Source: Candidatus Peregrinibacteria bacterium (GTDB lineage: Bacteria > Patescibacteriota > Gracilibacteria > UBA1369 > PNNO01). Taken from it: a DNA stretch of 64,000 nt. A program made the position numbers and the translations under genes. The stretch spans positions 124,347 to 188,346 of the forward strand of contig JAFGJT010000009.1 in assembly GCA_016928915.1 (NCBI GenBank). The letters are read 5' to 3'. The stretch's first letter is position 1, and each line of letters starts with the position of its first letter. Of this stretch, positions 6,111 to 62,292 are shown in pieces. The notes beneath the pieces are model-generated. The model worked only from the letters and a program-made list of their open reading frames with translations, searched no databases and was not told the DNA's origin.

Positions 6111-8780
<2,670 letters not shown>

Positions 8781-38026: not shown

Positions 38027-39256
38027 CTATAAAGATTTATATATTTTCAGCGTCTCTTTCGCGCATTTATTCCAAGTGAAATTTCGGGCCCGTTCAATTC
38101 CCAACTTTGAATACTTATCCCTCTCCGATGGTGATTTGACAAACTCTAAAATCCGACCCGCAATATCAGAATGATTCATTGGGTTAACATATTTTACCGC
38201 ATCTCCGCCGACTTCCGGCAAAGACGACATTGATGAAGTTACAACCGGCACACCGCACGCCATGGCTTCAAGAACCGGCAAACCGAATCCCTCATAAAAT
38301 GATGGATAAACAAACACTTCTGTTCCGTTTAACAGGTAAGGAACCTCTTCGTCGCTTACAAATCCCGTCCGTACAACGTCGTCGCCCAAACCGAGTTCAC
38401 CGATTTTGCGGTATATTTCCTCATAAAACCACCCGTCTTTTCCGATTAAAACAAGCTTATGAGGGATTTTTTCCTTATTTTTAAGCTCATAAAACGCCTG
38501 AAGCAAATTCACAAGGTTTTTTCGCGGTTCGATAGTTCCCAGATAACAAATATACGGCTCTTCTATGCCGTATTTCTTCAGAACACCTTGAAGAGCAATC
38601 CTTTCGTTTTTAGCTGAATCAGATTGAAAATCGGCAACTGCTTTAAGTCCGGAATCGTTCCCTAAAGTAATATCTGTTTTAACTCTCGAATTGTTTTTCT
38701 TTCCGATCGGCCTGAACCTTTCATGCACCCCGAACGGCGTCACAAAAATCCGCTCTGCCGGAATGCCGATTCGTTCAATAATATCCCGTTTTGTGTTCTG
38801 GGAATTCGTTAAAACCGCATTCGCATACTTTTTAATGCCTTTAAACCTGTAATGATAAAGAATTTTGTTTTTAAGAAGATGATACTGCGGGTAAAGAATC
38901 GTTGTAATGTCGTGAATAAACGCCACCGTTTTAGCACGCGTGGGCTGTTGGCATATCTCGGAAATCTGATAAAGATCGCATTTTTCGGTGATGTTCTCAA
39001 GACGAGGCCATCTTGCCATCAACCACCATGCCGTGATTAACCGTTGCGGGATTTTATATGCATGCATGCGCATATTTCCAAAAGGAATCTTAAAGTCTAA
39101 ACCACAGTACTTTGCATTATCCCGCAGATTAAAGGCATAAAGGTTGTACTGATTCTCGCGGTCAATCTTAAAAAGAGAATTTAAAAGATTAAATTGGTAC
39201 TGCCCGATACCCGTTTTTGGCATGCTTAGAGCCGTAATGTCGAATCCGATTTTCAT
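38027..39256 (-). CDS. GT4-family glycosyltransferase
   Basis: FVTPFGVHERF, CYLGTIEPRKNLVNLLQAFYEL, YPSFYEGFGLPVLEAMACGVPVVTS. Confidence 0.93.
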   Translation of the reverse strand: MKIGFDITALSMPKTGIGQYQFNLLNSLFKIDRENQYNLYAFNLRDNAKYCGLDFKIPFGNMRMHAYKIPQRLITAWWLMARWPRLENITEKCDLYQISEICQQPTRAKTVAFIHDITTILYPQYHLLKNKILYHYRFKGIKKYANAVLTNSQNTKRDIIERIGIPAERIFVTPFGVHERFRPIGKKNNSRVKTDITLGNDSGLKAVADFQSDSAKNERIALQGVLKKYGIEEPYICYLGTIEPRKNLVNLLQAFYELKNKEKIPHKLVLIGKDGWFYEEIYRKIGELGLGDDVVRTGFVSDEEVPYLLNGTEVFVYPSFYEGFGLPVLEAMACGVPVVTSSMSSLPEVGGDAVKYVNPMNHSDIAGRILEFVKSPSERDKYSKLGIERARNFTWNKCAKETLKIYKSL

Positions 39257-52942: not shown

Positions 52943-53043
52943 AGGGTGTAATAGAGAAACCTGTTTATTTTAATTGTTTATTTGTTTATTTAGCCAACGG
53001 CAATTACCAATTTATTGGTATTGTCGTAACTTCATAAATTTTT

Positions 53044-54508
<1,465 letters not shown>

Positions 54509-54629: not shown

Positions 54630-54971
54630 ATGTTAGATGCTTATACAATTATCGGTTTTATTGGAGCTCTGGTGTTAATGGTAGCTGTTGTTATGAACCA
54701 GCTTGGCAGATGGCAGACAAATGATTTTGAATATGATTTTATAAATCTCATTGGAAGCGCAATACTGGCTGTCTATGCATGGCAGATCGGAAGTTATCCA
54801 TTACTTGTATTGTTCGTTGTCTGGGCTTTGTTCTCGGCAAAAGACGTTGTAGGCGACGGTTTTCATCAGCTTTTCAAGAAAGGCAAGAAGGATGAATCAA
54901 AAAAAGAAGAGCCGACAAAAGAAGAACCCAGAAACGAAGAACCTAAACAGGAAGAAACCAAGGGGCTGTAG
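54630..54971 (+). CDS. Small membrane protein (CBU_0592-like) with Lys/Glu-rich C-terminal tail
   Basis: LDAYTIIGFIGALVLMVAVVMNQLGRWQTNDFEYDFINLIGSAILAVYAW; stop codon lies inside tRNA-Ala. Confidence 0.8.
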   Translation: MLDAYTIIGFIGALVLMVAVVMNQLGRWQTNDFEYDFINLIGSAILAVYAWQIGSYPLLVLFVVWALFSAKDVVGDGFHQLFKKGKKDESKKEEPTKEEPRNEEPKQEETKGL

Positions 54972-55038
54972 CTCAGTTGGCTAGAGCGCCTCGCTTGCAC
55001 CGAGGAGGCCAAGGGTTCGACTCCCTTCAGCTCCACCA
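54962..55038 (+). tRNA. tRNA-Ala(TGC)
   Basis: GGGGCTG/CAGCTCC acceptor with G3:U70, anticodon loop CTTGCAC, encoded CCA. Confidence 0.97.
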
Positions 55039-55078
55039 GAAATTTTTATGTAAAAAATTATTTAAATCCAATATAAAA

Positions 55079-57064
55079 GTGCAATCCAAAGCTAGCCATT
55101 TTTTTGAGTATCTTACATGGGTGGGTTTTTTGGTAATAATCACTTTTTCTGTTTATAACGACGGGGGAATAGATATATTAAGCCATCTTTTCCTTTCAGG
55201 TTCACTGATCATTTTTGGCATTCTTTATCTTCTTTATAAAAAGCCTTTAAAATATGGAATAGAGTTAATTCCATTATTGTTTTTTTTAGTTTTCTTTTTA
55301 TTATCTTTTGTTTTTAGCCAGACAAAAAATGTCGGGCTTTTTGAATTAATTCTATTTATATCCGGGGCGTTTGTTTATATATATGTTTCAAGTCAAAAAT
55401 GGGACTTTTCCATATTTGAAAAATTCATGAAATGGATAGTTGTCATTGCGGTAATAATTACTTTGTACGGTTATTTCCATTATATATTTGACCCGTTTAA
55501 CAGGTTTACATCTACATTTGTAGAGCGTATTTATAATTTTGTAGGATACCCCAACGCATATGCAAACTTTATTCTCGCCGTAATCCCGATTCCTTTTTAT
55601 TTCCTTTATAAAGACGTAAAACCATCTGTCAGGCGGGCATTATATGTTTCTTTAATATTAATCATTTCCGCTTTCTTTTTAACTTATTCAAGAGGAGCGT
55701 TTATTGCTTTATCTGTGATTTCTATCCCTTATATTTTAGGTATTTTATTTTCGAGCAAAGGACATTTAAAACAAGGTATTAAAAAACTCAAGACCATTGT
55801 GTTGTTAGTAGTCTTATCAGCTATATTAACAATTCCTGTAAACTATTTGCGCAGTATGAATAATTCGGAGGTTGCTTCTTTTGCTGATAAAATCACACTT
55901 GAATCCGGTGAAAAGGACACATCTACAAGCGACAGATTGGAATTTTGGGAAGGAAGCATAGAGATGTTCATGGATAATCCTGTGTTTGGAACCGGACCTG
56001 GAAGTTTTCAGTATGTTTTTCCTGCTTATCAAAAAACACTGCTTGCAAATTCAAACAGCCCCCATAATTTGTTTTTGAAATTGTTGGTTGAAAATGGCGT
56101 ATTTGCAATGGCTTTTTTTGTTTTATTTATGCTCATACTGTTTTTGCGTGGAATAATGGTATATAAAAATTTTACAAAAAACGAACGATTACTGATTTTT
56201 ACCCTTGCCGCAAGCATTATTGGCAGTTTGCTTCATAATATGGTTGATTATAATCTGAATTTTGTTTCAATAATTTTGCTGCTTTTTATATTTTTTGGAG
56301 TTATAGGTTTTATAATAAATAAAAATTCCGACAAATTTGTTACAGAATTAAAAGTAAGATTTGTTAAATATTTATTGGTTTTAGTTGGTTTATTAATGTG
56401 TTTTGTTGCATTGCACGAAGTATATTATTCATATGTTTTTATTCAGGCCCGAGCAGCTCATAAAGCAGGGGATTATACGGCAGCCGAAAGTTATTATACG
56501 AAAGCAAAGGATATTTTTTTAAAACGTGATTTATTTATTGGTTTTGCTCAAATGAATGTTAAAAAGTTTGAAACAGAAGGTGATATTAAATATTTAGAAA
56601 ACGCAGAAAAGTTATTACTGACAGGCTTTTCATTAAACAGTCACGATGCTTTTATTGTTAATTATCTCGGAGATATTGCTTTTGATATGAATAAAATTGA
56701 GCAGGCAAAAAATTATTATGCACAATCATTAAAATTAGATCCCAAAAATAATCTTGATTATTATTATGATAATTTGAATGTGGATGATGCTTTGACTAAG
56801 GAAGAGATAGATGACTTAATTGCTCTTCTTGATGATTACCATGATAAACTCGCTCAAAATGCGCATCTTACAATTCTTACCGGAAATCCCGATTCAGCCG
56901 TTATGATTTATGAGCTTTTACTCTCTAAAATTAAAGATACTGAATTTGCTTTTGTTTATAATGATAAATTATTGGAAGGTCTAAAGCAGATGCAGGATAC
57001 ATACGAACTGGAAAAATCCAAATTCGAAAAACACTATAATTTAAAGCTGACAAAAGAGGATTAA
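55079..57064 (+). CDS. O-antigen ligase/polymerase-like membrane protein with C-terminal TPR
   Basis: Polytopic; GTGPGSFQYVFPAYQKTLLANSNSPHNLFLKLLVENGV WaaL-type loop; TPR-like tail. Start uncertain: the ORF-track ATG (54977) is inside tRNA-Ala, so GTG at 55079 is proposed. Confidence 0.82.
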   Translation: MQSKASHFFEYLTWVGFLVIITFSVYNDGGIDILSHLFLSGSLIIFGILYLLYKKPLKYGIELIPLLFFLVFFLLSFVFSQTKNVGLFELILFISGAFVYIYVSSQKWDFSIFEKFMKWIVVIAVIITLYGYFHYIFDPFNRFTSTFVERIYNFVGYPNAYANFILAVIPIPFYFLYKDVKPSVRRALYVSLILIISAFFLTYSRGAFIALSVISIPYILGILFSSKGHLKQGIKKLKTIVLLVVLSAILTIPVNYLRSMNNSEVASFADKITLESGEKDTSTSDRLEFWEGSIEMFMDNPVFGTGPGSFQYVFPAYQKTLLANSNSPHNLFLKLLVENGVFAMAFFVLFMLILFLRGIMVYKNFTKNERLLIFTLAASIIGSLLHNMVDYNLNFVSIILLLFIFFGVIGFIINKNSDKFVTELKVRFVKYLLVLVGLLMCFVALHEVYYSYVFIQARAAHKAGDYTAAESYYTKAKDIFLKRDLFIGFAQMNVKKFETEGDIKYLENAEKLLLTGFSLNSHDAFIVNYLGDIAFDMNKIEQAKNYYAQSLKLDPKNNLDYYYDNLNVDDALTKEEIDDLIALLDDYHDKLAQNAHLTILTGNPDSAVMIYELLLSKIKDTEFAFVYNDKLLEGLKQMQDTYELEKSKFEKHYNLKLTKED

Positions 57065-57070
57065 TATATT

Positions 57071-58963
57071 TTAAAAACACACATCGTATTGATATCCGTT
57101 TTTGTTATATTTTTGTTTGTACAAATTGAGTTTTTCTATGAATTGATTCCAGTCTTTGGCTATATCGCCGGAACTTTCAAGTATTTCAATAATACACTGA
57201 GCATGTTTAATTTCCGGTTTCATTGATACAAAATGCAGATTATTCTTTGCATAAAACATAAAATCTTCGATAATAGGATATAGCATTTTATCAAGATATT
57301 CATCAGGAGGAGATTGATTGATTGCTTTAAGGGTTTTAAGGTAATAATAATGGACCGCAAGCGAGTTCTTTGGATCTATTTGGAGAGCTTGTTTAAAGGA
57401 TAAAATGGCTTCGTCATATTTTTTAAGATCATATAAAATTCTGCCTTTATTTAAAGGTCCATATATATCGTGTGGATTAATTTTAATATGTTCTTCAACC
57501 ATTTTCATTGCATTTGAAAGATCATTTTTTAAAAAGTAATAGTCGCTTAATTGTATCCAGAATTCCCTGGGATATAAACTTTTTGAATATTTAGAAATAT
57601 GGCTTTCAAGTTCTGAACTGGTATATCGTTTTATTGTTTGAAAATCCGAATAAGGGTCTGTGTTAAAATAATCTCTTATTCCTACCAACGATAAAATTAC
57701 TGATATGGCACAAAATGCCAGAAATACTGCTTTTTTAGTAATTTGAAACTTTTGTTGTAATCGTTCAGCCTTTCCTTCATTTATTTGATTTATTAAAAGC
57801 CCGAGAGTTATAGCAAATACAATATAAATTAAAAGAAAATTTAAGTTATAGTCAATCATGTTGTGCGCAAGCCCTCCGAAAATTGCCACGGCCATAAAAT
57901 TTTTCTGCGGTGTGGATTTTTTTATGCTTTTAACCGCGATTAAAACGAAAAATACTATTAACAGTGCTGCGCAAACTACCCCGCTTTCAAACGCTGTTTT
58001 TAAAAAGATATTATGAGGATGATCCGAGTTTGCATATAAAAGTTCCTGTTTTGACGGATAAATAAATCTGAAGGTCTGGGGTCCGTAGCCGAAGATCGGT
58101 TTTTCCAATATCAAACCAAGGGTGATTCTAAAAAAATCGCTCCTTTCTTCTATCGATGTAATATTTTCATTGTTTGAAAATGTAAGCTTATCTCCAATGT
58201 CGTAAGTTTGGATATTATGCTCTGAACGTATAAATAAAGTCAGAGATATAAAAACTGCGCCGACAATTATTGCTATAATCCATTTGTACTTATATAACAG
58301 AAAATATTTATAATTAAAATAAGCTAAAATAATTAACTGGATTATAAAAGCTATATATGCGCCTCTTGAAAATGTTAAGTATAGAGCTGCTATTATTAAG
58401 CCTAAAATACCTATATTGAGTATATTTTGAAGCCTTAATTTTGACTCGGTTATTTTCAGTCCCACATACGGCCACATAACAAGCAAAAACATCGCTACTG
58501 CATTTGGGAATCCCTGAGCTTTGGCTAAAGGATTAATTATATTGCTTATAACTCTTATGTCGGAATTAAAAGCGAAATGGTAAAGACCGTAAATGCTTAA
58601 TACTGAAGCTGTTAAAATCAGTCCCCATTCTAATATTTTAGTATTTTTTAACTGGGAAGTTATAAGTATTGTGTTTGCAGCCGTGAAAAATACAAAAATT
58701 TCGGCAATTCCGTATGCTTTTATATCAGATAACAAAAATGAAACAATTATGGGTATTCCTATAATAAAAAATAATTCGGTTTCAAGATATAGTTTAATTT
58801 TTTTAATAAAAAATAAATTTAAAAGTGTAGTTCCTGCAAGCATTAGTATCACTTCACGATAACCCAGGCCGATATCATATTTAACACCGTATCTTAAAAA
58901 CATCGCAAAACACGCAGCTGCAAAGAAAATTTGAGGGATAGCCCATTTTCGCTCAAGTTGCAT
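57071..58963 (-). CDS. O-antigen ligase/polymerase-like membrane protein with C-terminal TPR
   Basis: Polytopic; GYGPQTFRFIYPSKQELLYANSDHPHNIFLKTAFESGV; TPR IYGPLNKGRILYDLKKYDEAILSFKQALQIDPKN. Confidence 0.88.
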   Translation of the reverse strand: MQLERKWAIPQIFFAAACFAMFLRYGVKYDIGLGYREVILMLAGTTLLNLFFIKKIKLYLETELFFIIGIPIIVSFLLSDIKAYGIAEIFVFFTAANTILITSQLKNTKILEWGLILTASVLSIYGLYHFAFNSDIRVISNIINPLAKAQGFPNAVAMFLLVMWPYVGLKITESKLRLQNILNIGILGLIIAALYLTFSRGAYIAFIIQLIILAYFNYKYFLLYKYKWIIAIIVGAVFISLTLFIRSEHNIQTYDIGDKLTFSNNENITSIEERSDFFRITLGLILEKPIFGYGPQTFRFIYPSKQELLYANSDHPHNIFLKTAFESGVVCAALLIVFFVLIAVKSIKKSTPQKNFMAVAIFGGLAHNMIDYNLNFLLIYIVFAITLGLLINQINEGKAERLQQKFQITKKAVFLAFCAISVILSLVGIRDYFNTDPYSDFQTIKRYTSSELESHISKYSKSLYPREFWIQLSDYYFLKNDLSNAMKMVEEHIKINPHDIYGPLNKGRILYDLKKYDEAILSFKQALQIDPKNSLAVHYYYLKTLKAINQSPPDEYLDKMLYPIIEDFMFYAKNNLHFVSMKPEIKHAQCIIEILESSGDIAKDWNQFIEKLNLYKQKYNKNGYQYDVCF

Positions 58964-59126
58964 ATTTAAATTTTGTTTATATTGAGGAAACTACCAACTA
59001 TTTTATAACTTTCATGTTTTTAATCAATCAAATCTTCCTCTTTAAAACGGGGCTGCAGACTCATTGAGATAGGCCTGATTCTCTGGTATTATCAAAATAA
59101 GAAATTCAGCAGCTAAAACTTATAAA

Positions 59127-60383
59127 ATGTTTTTGCACAAATATAAAAATTTCGCATTAGGCACCGTGTTTGTTTCACCGATATTAGTGCATTTTTGGAC
59201 CATTTTAAAATATGGCTTAAATATTCCTTTCTGGGATGATTTTGATACTGTATTTTCATTCTTAATCAAATATTTAAACACTAATTCTTTATTTGAAAAA
59301 TTAGCATTGGTTTTTGCCCAGCATACTGAACATAGATTTGCCTTAAACAGAATAGTGAGTTTATTAAATTATTATATCAGTAATGTTGACTTTAAATTAC
59401 TTCTGATAATCGGAAATCTGGCTCTTATCGGTGTTTTAATAATTCTTTACCGCGCTTGCAAAGTTTCAAAAAATAAGCTTTTTTTTCTTATCCCGATCCC
59501 TTTTCTTCTTTTTCAGCCGCAGTATAATGAAAGTATTTTCTGGGCAACCGCGGCGCTGGCAAATTTTTTTATTTTATTATTTGCTTTTTTGGCTATTTAT
59601 TTTCTTCCAAAAAATAAAAAAAAATTCTTTATTTTATCAATAATTTTTGCCCTGTGCGCCACATTTACAATGGGCAACGGAATATTTGTATTTCTTATCG
59701 GCTTATTGGTTTTGGTATATCAAAAACGTTATCGTGAAACCATTATTTGGTTTGTGGTTACAGCAGCGGTCATTGCATTCTATTTTTATAATTACATCAA
59801 TCCGGCAAGCCATCCCAGCCTATTGCAGGCATTGCTCCATCCTCTTGATATAATAATTTGTTTTTTCTCTTTAATAGGCGCGCCTTTAGCTTCGCTTCAC
59901 CCATATTTATTAAGTCTTTCGCCATATTTCGGCATTTTAATTGTTTTATATTTTATTTATTTAACTTATAAAGCTTATTTTAAGAAAAATATCGTTATTT
60001 ATTCGTTTTTTCTTTTTCTTTTGATTTCAGTGTTTTTAATAGCTTTTGCTCGCAGCGGTTTTGGACTGGAACAGGCCTTTTCTTCAAAATACATGATAGT
60101 AGGTATTTTGTTTTATATCCTCAGCTATATTTCACTTGTTGAGATTTTTCCGTTTATTCAGAAAAAAAAATACGTGTTTGTTTTTATGATTTTTGCCTTG
60201 GTATTTAATGTTGTTGCATATTATTCAAATTTTAAATACATAAAAGACCATCATGATAGTTTGGCGGGCAGCATGGAACAATGGCGCGAGACCAAGTCCG
60301 GCTTTTTGTTATATCCTGACCAAGACAGAGCAAATAAGCTCCTTTTAGAAGCGATGGATAAAAATATATATACGGTTAACTAG
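59127..60383 (+). CDS. Polytopic membrane protein, possible GT-C-fold glycosyltransferase
   Basis: About 10 TM helices; acidic motif IPFWDDFDTV in the first extramembrane loop. Confidence 0.6.
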   Translation: MFLHKYKNFALGTVFVSPILVHFWTILKYGLNIPFWDDFDTVFSFLIKYLNTNSLFEKLALVFAQHTEHRFALNRIVSLLNYYISNVDFKLLLIIGNLALIGVLIILYRACKVSKNKLFFLIPIPFLLFQPQYNESIFWATAALANFFILLFAFLAIYFLPKNKKKFFILSIIFALCATFTMGNGIFVFLIGLLVLVYQKRYRETIIWFVVTAAVIAFYFYNYINPASHPSLLQALLHPLDIIICFFSLIGAPLASLHPYLLSLSPYFGILIVLYFIYLTYKAYFKKNIVIYSFFLFLLISVFLIAFARSGFGLEQAFSSKYMIVGILFYILSYISLVEIFPFIQKKKYVFVFMIFALVFNVVAYYSNFKYIKDHHDSLAGSMEQWRETKSGFLLYPDQDRANKLLLEAMDKNIYTVN

Positions 60384-60427
60384 GTTTTTAGTTTATAATC
60401 TGTTCGAATATTTGTTTAAAACCTAGA

Positions 60428-61291
60428 ATGAAAAATTATCTTGCTTTGCTTCGTCCCACACAATGGATTAAAAACCTGTTTATTTTGCTGCCTTTGTTTT
60501 TCGGCTTAAAAATTACAGACTTGAACCTTCTTTCTACAGCCCTTTTGGCGGTATTTTTCTTTTCGTTCGTAACAAGCGCCGTCTACATTTTTAATGATTA
60601 TTATGATCTTGAGGAAGACAAAAAGCATCCCATTAAAAGAAACAGGCCGTTTGCCGCCGGAAAAGTTTCTATTAAAAAAGCATTTATACTCATGGCGGTG
60701 CTTTTTGTTATTGGATGCGCAGGTTCCTGGGTAATGGCTCCTTCGATGTTTTATTTGGTTTTGAGCTATTGCTTTTTTAACGTGTTGTACACCCTGAAAT
60801 TTAAACATATTGTTCTTATAGATATCGTAATCGTAGGGATTGGCTTTGTAATCAGGCTTTTAATAGGTGCTGTTGTTACAGGGTTGGCTCTTTCGCAATG
60901 GATTGTTACAATGATTTTTTTGCTTGCTCTTTTCATTTCCATTGCAAAACGCAGAGACGACATGTTGATTTATCTTAACGAAGGCAAAATGACGAGGAAG
61001 GTGATGGATGGCTATAACATGGAATTTTTGAATGCTTCTATGGTTTTGGCGGCATCAGCTGTTGTTGTTTTTTATATCATCTACACTGTTTCACCAGATG
61101 TAATCGGCAAAGTTCACACAGATAAGCTTTATTTTACATCTGTATTTGTTGTGCTCGGCGTTCTTCGATATTTGCAAATCGCTTTTGTTGAAAACAACAG
61201 CGGTTCACCCACTGAAATTCTTTTGAAAGACAAGTTTATTTTATTCACGATTTTGGGATGGGCAGTCACATTTGTTGCTCTTACATATTAA
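60428..61291 (+). CDS. UbiA-superfamily prenyltransferase, decaprenyl-phosphate phosphoribosyltransferase-like
   Basis: LLRPTQWIKNLFIL, YIFNDYYDLEEDKKHPIKRNRPFAAGKV (NDxxDxxxD), YTLKFKHIVLIDIVIVGIGFVIRLLIGAV. Confidence 0.85.
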   Translation: MKNYLALLRPTQWIKNLFILLPLFFGLKITDLNLLSTALLAVFFFSFVTSAVYIFNDYYDLEEDKKHPIKRNRPFAAGKVSIKKAFILMAVLFVIGCAGSWVMAPSMFYLVLSYCFFNVLYTLKFKHIVLIDIVIVGIGFVIRLLIGAVVTGLALSQWIVTMIFLLALFISIAKRRDDMLIYLNEGKMTRKVMDGYNMEFLNASMVLAASAVVVFYIIYTVSPDVIGKVHTDKLYFTSVFVVLGVLRYLQIAFVENNSGSPTEILLKDKFILFTILGWAVTFVALTY

Positions 61292-61297
61292 AGAAAA

Positions 61298-62152
61298 ATG
61301 TCAAAATTAATTATTAAATATAGTGCATTTGCTCTCATTGCGATTTTTGGCAATATAATCGTGCAATTCATGGTTTTTAATAATTATACCGGTCCATATC
61401 AGCTACTCGTTGCCATGGCTTGCGGTACGGTGGCCAGCCTTTTTATTAAATATTTTCTGGATAAGAAATTCATTTTTTATTTTAACAATAAGAGAAATAA
61501 TATTTATAATTTTGCGCTTTATTCATTTAACGGCGTTTTTACTACATTAATTTTTTGGGGCATAGAAACAGCCTTTTATATTTTCCTGCCGTTTGGGGCG
61601 GCAAAATACATTGGGGCATTTATTGGGTTATGCATTTGTTATGTGATTAAGTACCACCTTGATAAACGTTTTGTCTTTGTGGAGTTTCCGTATGACAAAC
61701 TGCCTGCATTTGAAGATATTGGAGATATTCTGGATATGACTGTTATTCTTGATATTGACGGAACTATTGTGGCTGATAATTGTGATGAAATTGCCGCAGA
61801 AACAATGGTTGCAGTTGAAACGTTAAAGAAACACAACACGGTTTATTTATGCACAAATTCATTTAACCGCATTCGCAACGCCAAAGTAGAGAAATTATTG
61901 GGGCTGAAAATTGCCGACATGAAGCATAAAAAACCGAGCAAAAAAATTTTGGAAACAATGTTTGTGGAAAATCCGAGTCGCCTAGTTGTAATTGGTGATA
62001 AGTTTTTAACTGACGGTTTGTTTGCCAAACGCATAGGCGCGCAATTTTTAATGGTTAAAAGAAAACTTTCATTCAACGAGCCTTTATTGGTAAAAGTAAT
62101 TAATTTTATTGATGGTATGGCATATCATTTCGCTTATTTGTCTAAAAAATAG
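61298..62152 (+). CDS. Fusion: GtrA-like membrane domain (N) + HAD-superfamily phosphatase (C)
   Basis: Four TM GtrA-like region ending IKYHLDKRFVF; HAD motifs VILDIDGTIVADN, LCTNS, KHKKPSKK, VIGDKFLTDGLFAKRIGA. Confidence 0.82.
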   Translation: MSKLIIKYSAFALIAIFGNIIVQFMVFNNYTGPYQLLVAMACGTVASLFIKYFLDKKFIFYFNNKRNNIYNFALYSFNGVFTTLIFWGIETAFYIFLPFGAAKYIGAFIGLCICYVIKYHLDKRFVFVEFPYDKLPAFEDIGDILDMTVILDIDGTIVADNCDEIAAETMVAVETLKKHNTVYLCTNSFNRIRNAKVEKLLGLKIADMKHKKPSKKILETMFVENPSRLVVIGDKFLTDGLFAKRIGAQFLMVKRKLSFNEPLLVKVINFIDGMAYHFAYLSKK

Positions 62153-62215: not shown

Positions 62216-62292
62216 GGGCTTGTAGCTCAGCTGGTTAGAGCGCGTCGCTGATAACGACGAGGCCCGTGGTTCAAGTCCACGCAAGCCCACCA
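62216..62292 (+). tRNA. tRNA-Ile(GAT)
   Basis: GGGCTTG/CAAGCCC acceptor, anticodon loop CTGATAA, encoded CCA. Confidence 0.97.

Follow-up and report, generated by a model that had tools for sequence, protein, structure and literature searches.

A candidate three-gene pathway for lipid-linked ribofuranose with a GtrA-HAD fusion protein in a Candidatus Peregrinibacteria genome

Results

Organisation of the locus

We analysed a 64,000-nucleotide stretch of DNA (the window) from a Candidatus Peregrinibacteria bacterium. The source genome is a 1.13 Mb assembly of 20 contigs with an estimated completeness of 95.6%, and the window is part of its contig 13. Three open reading frames were found on the forward strand separated by gaps of 44 bp and 6 bp, in agreement with the original prediction of a compact co-directional trio. 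Directly upstream of the trio are two genes for membrane proteins with Wzy_C (O-antigen ligase) and TPR domains. In window coordinates, the features are as follows.

54977-57064, forward strand: Wzy_C (O-antigen ligase) and TPR membrane protein A
57071-58963, reverse strand: Wzy_C (O-antigen ligase) and TPR membrane protein B
59127-60383, forward strand: gene 1, ORF of 418 aa, polytopic membrane protein, candidate GT-C glycosyltransferase
60428-61291, forward strand: gene 2, ORF of 287 aa, predicted UbiA-superfamily polyprenyl-phosphate phosphoribosyltransferase (DPPRS/PPPRS type)
61298-62152, forward strand: gene 3, ORF of 284 aa, GtrA-HAD fusion
61298-61702, forward strand: N-terminal part of gene 3 (residues ~1-135), GtrA domain, putative lipid-linked-pentose flippase
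61718-62152, forward strand: C-terminal part of gene 3 (residues ~141-284), HAD domain, predicted cytoplasmic phosphoribose 5-phosphatase

The two Wzy_C/TPR genes are convergent and homologous to each other, and their products may be ligases or oligosaccharyltransferases. As listed, the 54977-57064 ORF overlaps a tRNA-Ala gene at its start, so its true start must be downstream. A scan for promoters and terminators gave no excess over shuffled sequence, and a TTGAGA-17-TATTAT element upstream of gene 1 (59064-59092) was not significant.

The trio is located between two spacer tRNAs, within a 15-kb 16S-23S rRNA spacer. The 16S rRNA gene lies at 53043-54507, tRNA-Ala(tgc) at 54962-55038 and tRNA-Ile(gat) at 62216-62292. 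The 23S rRNA gene, on the same strand, begins ~15.3 kb past the end of the 16S gene (L054, contig 13, 390-19929), giving a stretched rRNA operon with the order 16S, tRNA-Ala, Wzy pair, trio, tRNA-Ile, other genes, 23S. The arrangement gives the impression of an insertion of a surface-glycan block into the spacer.

Gene 2 retains the phosphoribose site of Rv3806c

The middle gene had been described as strongly similar to decaprenyl-phosphate phosphoribosyltransferases, and this was borne out. Gene 2 scored 251.7 bits against the corresponding model NF008977, above the NCBIfam cut-off of 234, compared to 35 bits for ubiA_proteo and 39 bits for cyoE_ctaB. A quinone- or haem-type UbiA identity was ruled out, as those models remained below 40 bits, and gene 2 did not group with quinone or other prenyltransferases. 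The best PDB match by far was Rv3806c (8j8j, E 7e-38), compared to 1e-6 for the prenyltransferase 4tq3. The motif NDYYDLEEDKKHPIKRNRPFAAGKV, quoted in the original prediction, is present in gene 2.

Active-site positions were checked using the PRPP/Mg contacts of the Rv3806c structure (PMC10994848) and the NDxxDxxxD motif, which matters in the Citrobacter youngae enzyme (PMC11127046). Identical residues were found at 12 of the 14 positions (R9, K15, Y53, N56, D57, D60, D64, K70, R73, Y121, K126 and K191), and the residues kept include the Rv3806c 5-phosphate contacts Lys28 and Tyr70. The two differences, N118 (Q135N) and F140 (Y157F), are conservative, and Phe occupies the Y157 position in some mycobacteria (PMC10994848). 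Since other UbiA enzymes do not share the phosphoribose-binding sites of Rv3806c (PMC10994848), their retention is good evidence for PRPP as the donor of the predicted gene 2 enzyme. No second UbiA-family protein was found in the source genome, which also encodes a PRPP synthetase.

In a maximum-likelihood UbiA tree, in which the root and the long branches (Mtb) are unsure, gene 2 paired with the protein of one other Peregrinibacteria genome, G038 (support 100/99). The pair fell inside a 20-row clade (100/100) together with proteins of G102, Spirochaetes, Campylobacterota and gammaproteobacteria, apart from most other Peregrinibacteria UbiA proteins. This position suggests lateral transfer or ancient paralogy. 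The tree also held a second, divergent Peregrinibacteria UbiA clade (L048 147-1789, L049 5345-7430 and L050 5576-7806), whose genes have a DAGK/YegS-type lipid kinase nearby (PF00781 in G012 and G047). The G047 locus of this clade additionally has a HAD protein of the gene 3 HAD family. The second clade and its kinase perhaps represent a route that phosphorylates salvaged polyprenol.

For the carrier lipid, no UppS/cis-prenyltransferase (PF01255) was found in the source genome. PF01255 was missing from 86 of the 89 genomes of the order and present in all 14 control genomes. Both the mevalonate pathway and peptidoglycan genes have been reported in the class Peribacteria (PMC4736985), so some polyprenyl carrier should exist.

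Gene 3 is a fusion of GtrA and HAD domains

The third gene had been proposed to join a GtrA-type membrane domain to a HAD phosphatase, and both halves were recovered. Gene 3 scored 128.6 bits against the NCBIfam GtrA model NF037976 (cut-off 50) and 22.9 against PF04138, slightly under its cut-off of 26.1. The HAD domain matched PF09419 at 34.9 bits (cut-off 20.4) as well as YqeG/HAD-IIIA models. A structure model built from 15 sequences (pLDDT 85) had four transmembrane helices in the GtrA domain (2-29, 35-58, 65-96 and 102-126) followed by an alternating strand/helix HAD domain. Foldseek with the whole model returned HAD-type phosphatases (pyridoxal phosphatase, nitrophenyl phosphatase) among unrelated folds, all at E >= 0.015, and so contributed little. 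The catalytic Asp residues on which the predicted phosphatase depends are present: the HAD motifs are intact (D152-I-D154-G-T, T186/S188, K212 and GD234....D239) and conserved in the G038 relative. G038 carries a full-length counterpart of the fusion with 60% identity throughout, indicating that gene 3 is a genuine two-domain protein rather than an annotation artefact. Basic stretches follow helix 4 and also occur in the loop that connects helices 2 and 3. Together with the four helices, and following the positive-inside rule, they predict a cytoplasmic HAD domain, on the side of the membrane at which the phosphorylated intermediate would arise.

Gene 1 has a GT-C-like layout

Gene 1 had been put forward as a polytopic GT-C candidate with a WDD motif. 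The motif and the layout were confirmed; a confident family assignment was not obtained. The protein has ~10 hydrophobic segments, the first of which is followed by a loop of 61 residues. This first extracytoplasmic loop holds PFWDDFD and HTEHR motifs, and an S-K-Y motif lies near residue 322. As the GT-C plan places a catalytic Asp close to the first transmembrane helix (PMC11127046), the layout fits this plan, and position and topology together suggest a transferase role. Gene 1 matched no Pfam family and no PDB sequence, and searches of the PDB, plasmids, the order and the phylum sample gave nothing useful. Its match to the putative glycosyltransferase family NF047440 was weak (E 7e-5, far under the cut-off); the same model also weakly matched membrane proteins adjoining UbiA in G082 and G106. 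The single-sequence AlphaFold model had a pLDDT of 52, too low for use in a fold comparison. No convincing relative was found in the 89 genomes of the order or in a 382-genome phylum sample, where the lone match (G091, 24% identity) was to a different, TPR-bearing membrane protein.

UbiA neighbourhoods in relatives

UbiA occurrence was surveyed in 117 genomes (the source genome and relatives), and the protein was present in 29, with a patchy distribution. The linkage between HAD and UbiA took three forms. HAD homologues were separate neighbours of UbiA in G017, G025, G012, G047 and G041, and such separate proteins in other Peregrinibacteria were 33-45% identical to the window HAD. In G006 the HAD homologue was fused to UbiA, and in the window and G038 it was fused to GtrA. 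UbiA, GtrA and HAD were three consecutive separate genes in G102. In several Peregrinibacteria loci, a small ArnE/ArnF-like transporter near UbiA took the place held by GtrA in the window, so one flippase type seems to have been exchanged for another. Several of the UbiA loci also held an SDR sugar epimerase and polytopic GT-C-like proteins, the latter adjoining UbiA in G006, G082, G102 and G106.

The UbiA and GtrA-HAD pair recurred in one other Peregrinibacteria genome, G038 (MAG contig JACRID010000013.1), which belongs to the same taxonomic order. There, an SDR epimerase directly follows GtrA-HAD, and a membrane protein other than gene 1 adjoins UbiA. Conservation of the set was therefore partial: the pair is shared with G038, while gene 1 is without a convincing relative and the trio itself is not conserved. 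The G038 membrane protein is present as two overlapping frames, 6194-7141 and 7063-8085 (L033, 6194-8085), reflecting a frameshift, an assembly error or two genes.

GTDB r220 was scanned for the fusion with two short peptide patterns, by which further GtrA-HAD fusions can be missed. The scan returned 21 loci, of which one was G038; the others matched over the GtrA part only and were almost all from Sulfurovum and relatives, Methylococcaceae and Spirochaetes. UbiA directly adjoined the GtrA match in 18 of the 21 loci, and in most of them DprE1-like and DprE2-like genes came next. Separate GtrA proteins, most of them adjoining UbiA, were 48-55% identical to the window GtrA domain. In Sinorhizobium alkalisoli, the noeCHOP genes follow this same arrangement, UbiA-GtrA-FAD oxidase-SDR. 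The window GtrA and UbiA thus belong to the arabinose-type lineage, from which they differ in lacking DprE1/E2 and in the phosphatase that is attached.

Search for an epimerase

The original prediction noted the lack of a DprE1/E2-like epimerase in the window and favoured a ribofuranosyl over an arabinofuranosyl donor. A search of the whole source genome supported this. The DprE1 model, which matched the Corynebacterium glutamicum positive control, had no match in the 95.6% complete genome, and the single FAD_binding_4 match was MurB, as read from its sequence. A DprE2-like query, run with no positive-control genome, also had no match in the source genome. The G038 epimerase query gave three SDR matches of just 30-35% identity, and no orthologue of that epimerase was found. 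The side chain of C. youngae turns from Xylf to Ribf when the SDR gene orf13 is lost (PMC11127046). With no DprE1, detected DprE2 or G038-epimerase orthologue, our best guess is that the sugar stays ribofuranose in the window system; given the incompleteness of the assembly, an epimerase could be missing from it. By analogy, with its SDR presumably acting on lipid-linked ribose, the product in G038 would be xylofuranose or another epimer.

DprE1 matches below the cut-off were obtained in seven other genomes of the order. The best of them, at 192 bits, was in G052. Its DprE1-like gene and UbiA are both on contig 1, ~30 kb apart (6997-8226 and 38100-38906), and some Peregrinibacteria may thus make lipid-linked arabinofuranose.

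Discussion

Proposed pathway and alternatives

We consider it probable that the trio forms a compact extracytoplasmic pentofuranosylation pathway, in which lipid-linked ribofuranose is made, flipped and used on a surface glycan. In the first step, strongly supported by sequence, gene 2 would convert PRPP and polyprenyl phosphate to polyprenyl-phosphate-ribose-5-phosphate at the cytoplasmic face. The second has good support from motifs and genomic association: the 5-phosphate would be removed by the gene 3 HAD domain, which GtrA would keep at the membrane. For both phosphoribosyl transfer and dephosphorylation, the C. youngae enzyme provides a direct biochemical precedent (PMC11127046). The GtrA domain may then move polyprenyl-phosphoryl-ribofuranose to the outer face, where a surface glycan or glycoprotein would receive the ribofuranose from gene 1, a putative GT-C-type enzyme. 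Even in the case of Rv3789, flipping by a GtrA protein is still unproven, and AftA recruitment has been proposed as well (PMC7502851).

It is possible, but on balance unlikely, that gene 1 is not the user of the polyprenyl-phosphoryl-pentose made and flipped by genes 2 and 3. Gene 1 would then be, for example, an accessory protein or a GT-C with another donor, and the pentose would go to another membrane enzyme, such as either of the adjacent Wzy_C/TPR proteins or an unlinked GT-C. The weak family assignment of gene 1 is consistent with this, as is G038, which has the closest UbiA and GtrA-HAD but lacks gene 1 and has a different membrane protein beside UbiA. However, gene 1 is in the same operon, 44 bp upstream of gene 2, and polytopic GT-C-like proteins repeatedly adjoin UbiA in four other genomes. 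Acceptor-specific GT-Cs would also be expected to diverge fast.

A more speculative version of the pathway, which we regard as doubtful, makes GtrA-HAD a flippase coupled to its phosphatase: GtrA would receive no lipid other than that dephosphorylated by the HAD domain of the same protein, export would be vectorial, and the carrier would not come from a standard UppS.

We think it rather improbable that the pathway ends in D-arabinofuranose or xylofuranose, through an epimerase whose gene escaped assembly or through a generic SDR enzyme. The incomplete genome and its three SDR matches leave room for such an enzyme, the closest GtrA/UbiA relatives outside the CPR are mostly in operons with DprE1- and DprE2-like genes, and G038 has its SDR epimerase right after GtrA-HAD. 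Against this, the genome-wide searches gave neither DprE1 nor DprE2, and in relatives such enzymes were clustered with UbiA, with the exception of G052, where the two are on the same contig. Action of the gene 3 HAD on another phosphate, in the manner of YqeG or phosphatidylglycerophosphate phosphatase with GtrA anchoring it or recruiting another protein, is very unlikely: the best family matches are indeed mitochondrial PGP phosphatase (PF09419) and YqeG, and a recruitment role has been proposed for Rv3789 (PMC7502851), but a PGP role would not explain why homologous HADs are repeatedly near or fused to the UbiA family of gene 2.

Comparison with known systems

The ribofuranose pathway that we favour is of a type already known, described in 2024 for the three-component pentofuranose system of C. 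youngae O1/O2 (Kelly 2024, PMC11127046). That system shares with the window the UbiA-type polyprenyl phosphoribose synthase, a HAD phosphatase, a flippase and a polytopic transferase candidate. The likeness of the HAD to the C. youngae PRP domain is by motifs, the window having DxDGT, with the catalytic Asp, and the other HAD motifs. The components differ in their arrangement. In C. youngae the HAD is fused to UbiA, whereas in the window it is fused to GtrA and UbiA stands alone. The C. youngae flippase is a MATE protein, whereas the window operon has the GtrA domain and no MATE protein. The transferase is GT136 in C. youngae, and in the window gene 1 is a candidate by its GT-C-like layout only. 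Whether the SDR epimerase is present or absent decides between Xylf and Ribf in C. youngae O1/O2, and a parallel difference separates G038 from the window.

The mycobacterial decaprenyl-phosphoryl-arabinose pathway (Rv3806c, Rv3807c, DprE1/DprE2 and Rv3789) has the same phosphoribosyltransferase type, with a conserved PRPP site, and a GtrA-family protein. It uses an Rv3807c-type phosphatase and DprE1/DprE2, whereas the window has a HAD phosphatase and neither DprE was found in the genome. In the noeCHOP Nod-factor arabinosylation genes (Azorhizobium, Sinorhizobium alkalisoli), as in the UbiA-GtrA-DprE1-DprE2 operons of Sulfurovum and Methylococcaceae, UbiA is directly followed by a homologous GtrA ~40-55% identical to that of the window. 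Unlike the window, these loci have DprE1/DprE2-like genes and a single-domain GtrA, and several loci of Campylobacterota and Methylococcaceae encode a HAD-IB protein in a gene of its own. By description, the pilin D-Araf genes of Pseudomonas paraeruginosa PA7 (PSPA7_6245-6251) with TfpW are also alike, in that a UbiA-type synthase feeds lipid-linked pentofuranose to a GT-C (PMC12369383, PMC11127046). There, arabinofuranose is placed on type IV pilin, unlike the ribofuranose predicted for the window.

Significance

A single protein that combines phosphatase and putative flippase appears to be a new arrangement. In the literature searched, whose coverage leaves out most subscription journals, we found neither a GtrA-HAD fusion nor a UbiA, GtrA-HAD and GT-C candidate set without an epimerase in a CPR genome. 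A natural fusion of a phosphatase to a putative flippase would offer a handle on GtrA function, since separation of function could be tested on one protein. The window and G038 would also amount to a natural experiment, with the same synthase and fusion found with and without an epimerase, in parallel to C. youngae O1/O2. The surface glycans of CPR bacteria are thought to be important for cell contact, and little is known of their chemistry. Together, these results would extend lipid-linked pentofuranose chemistry to the CPR.
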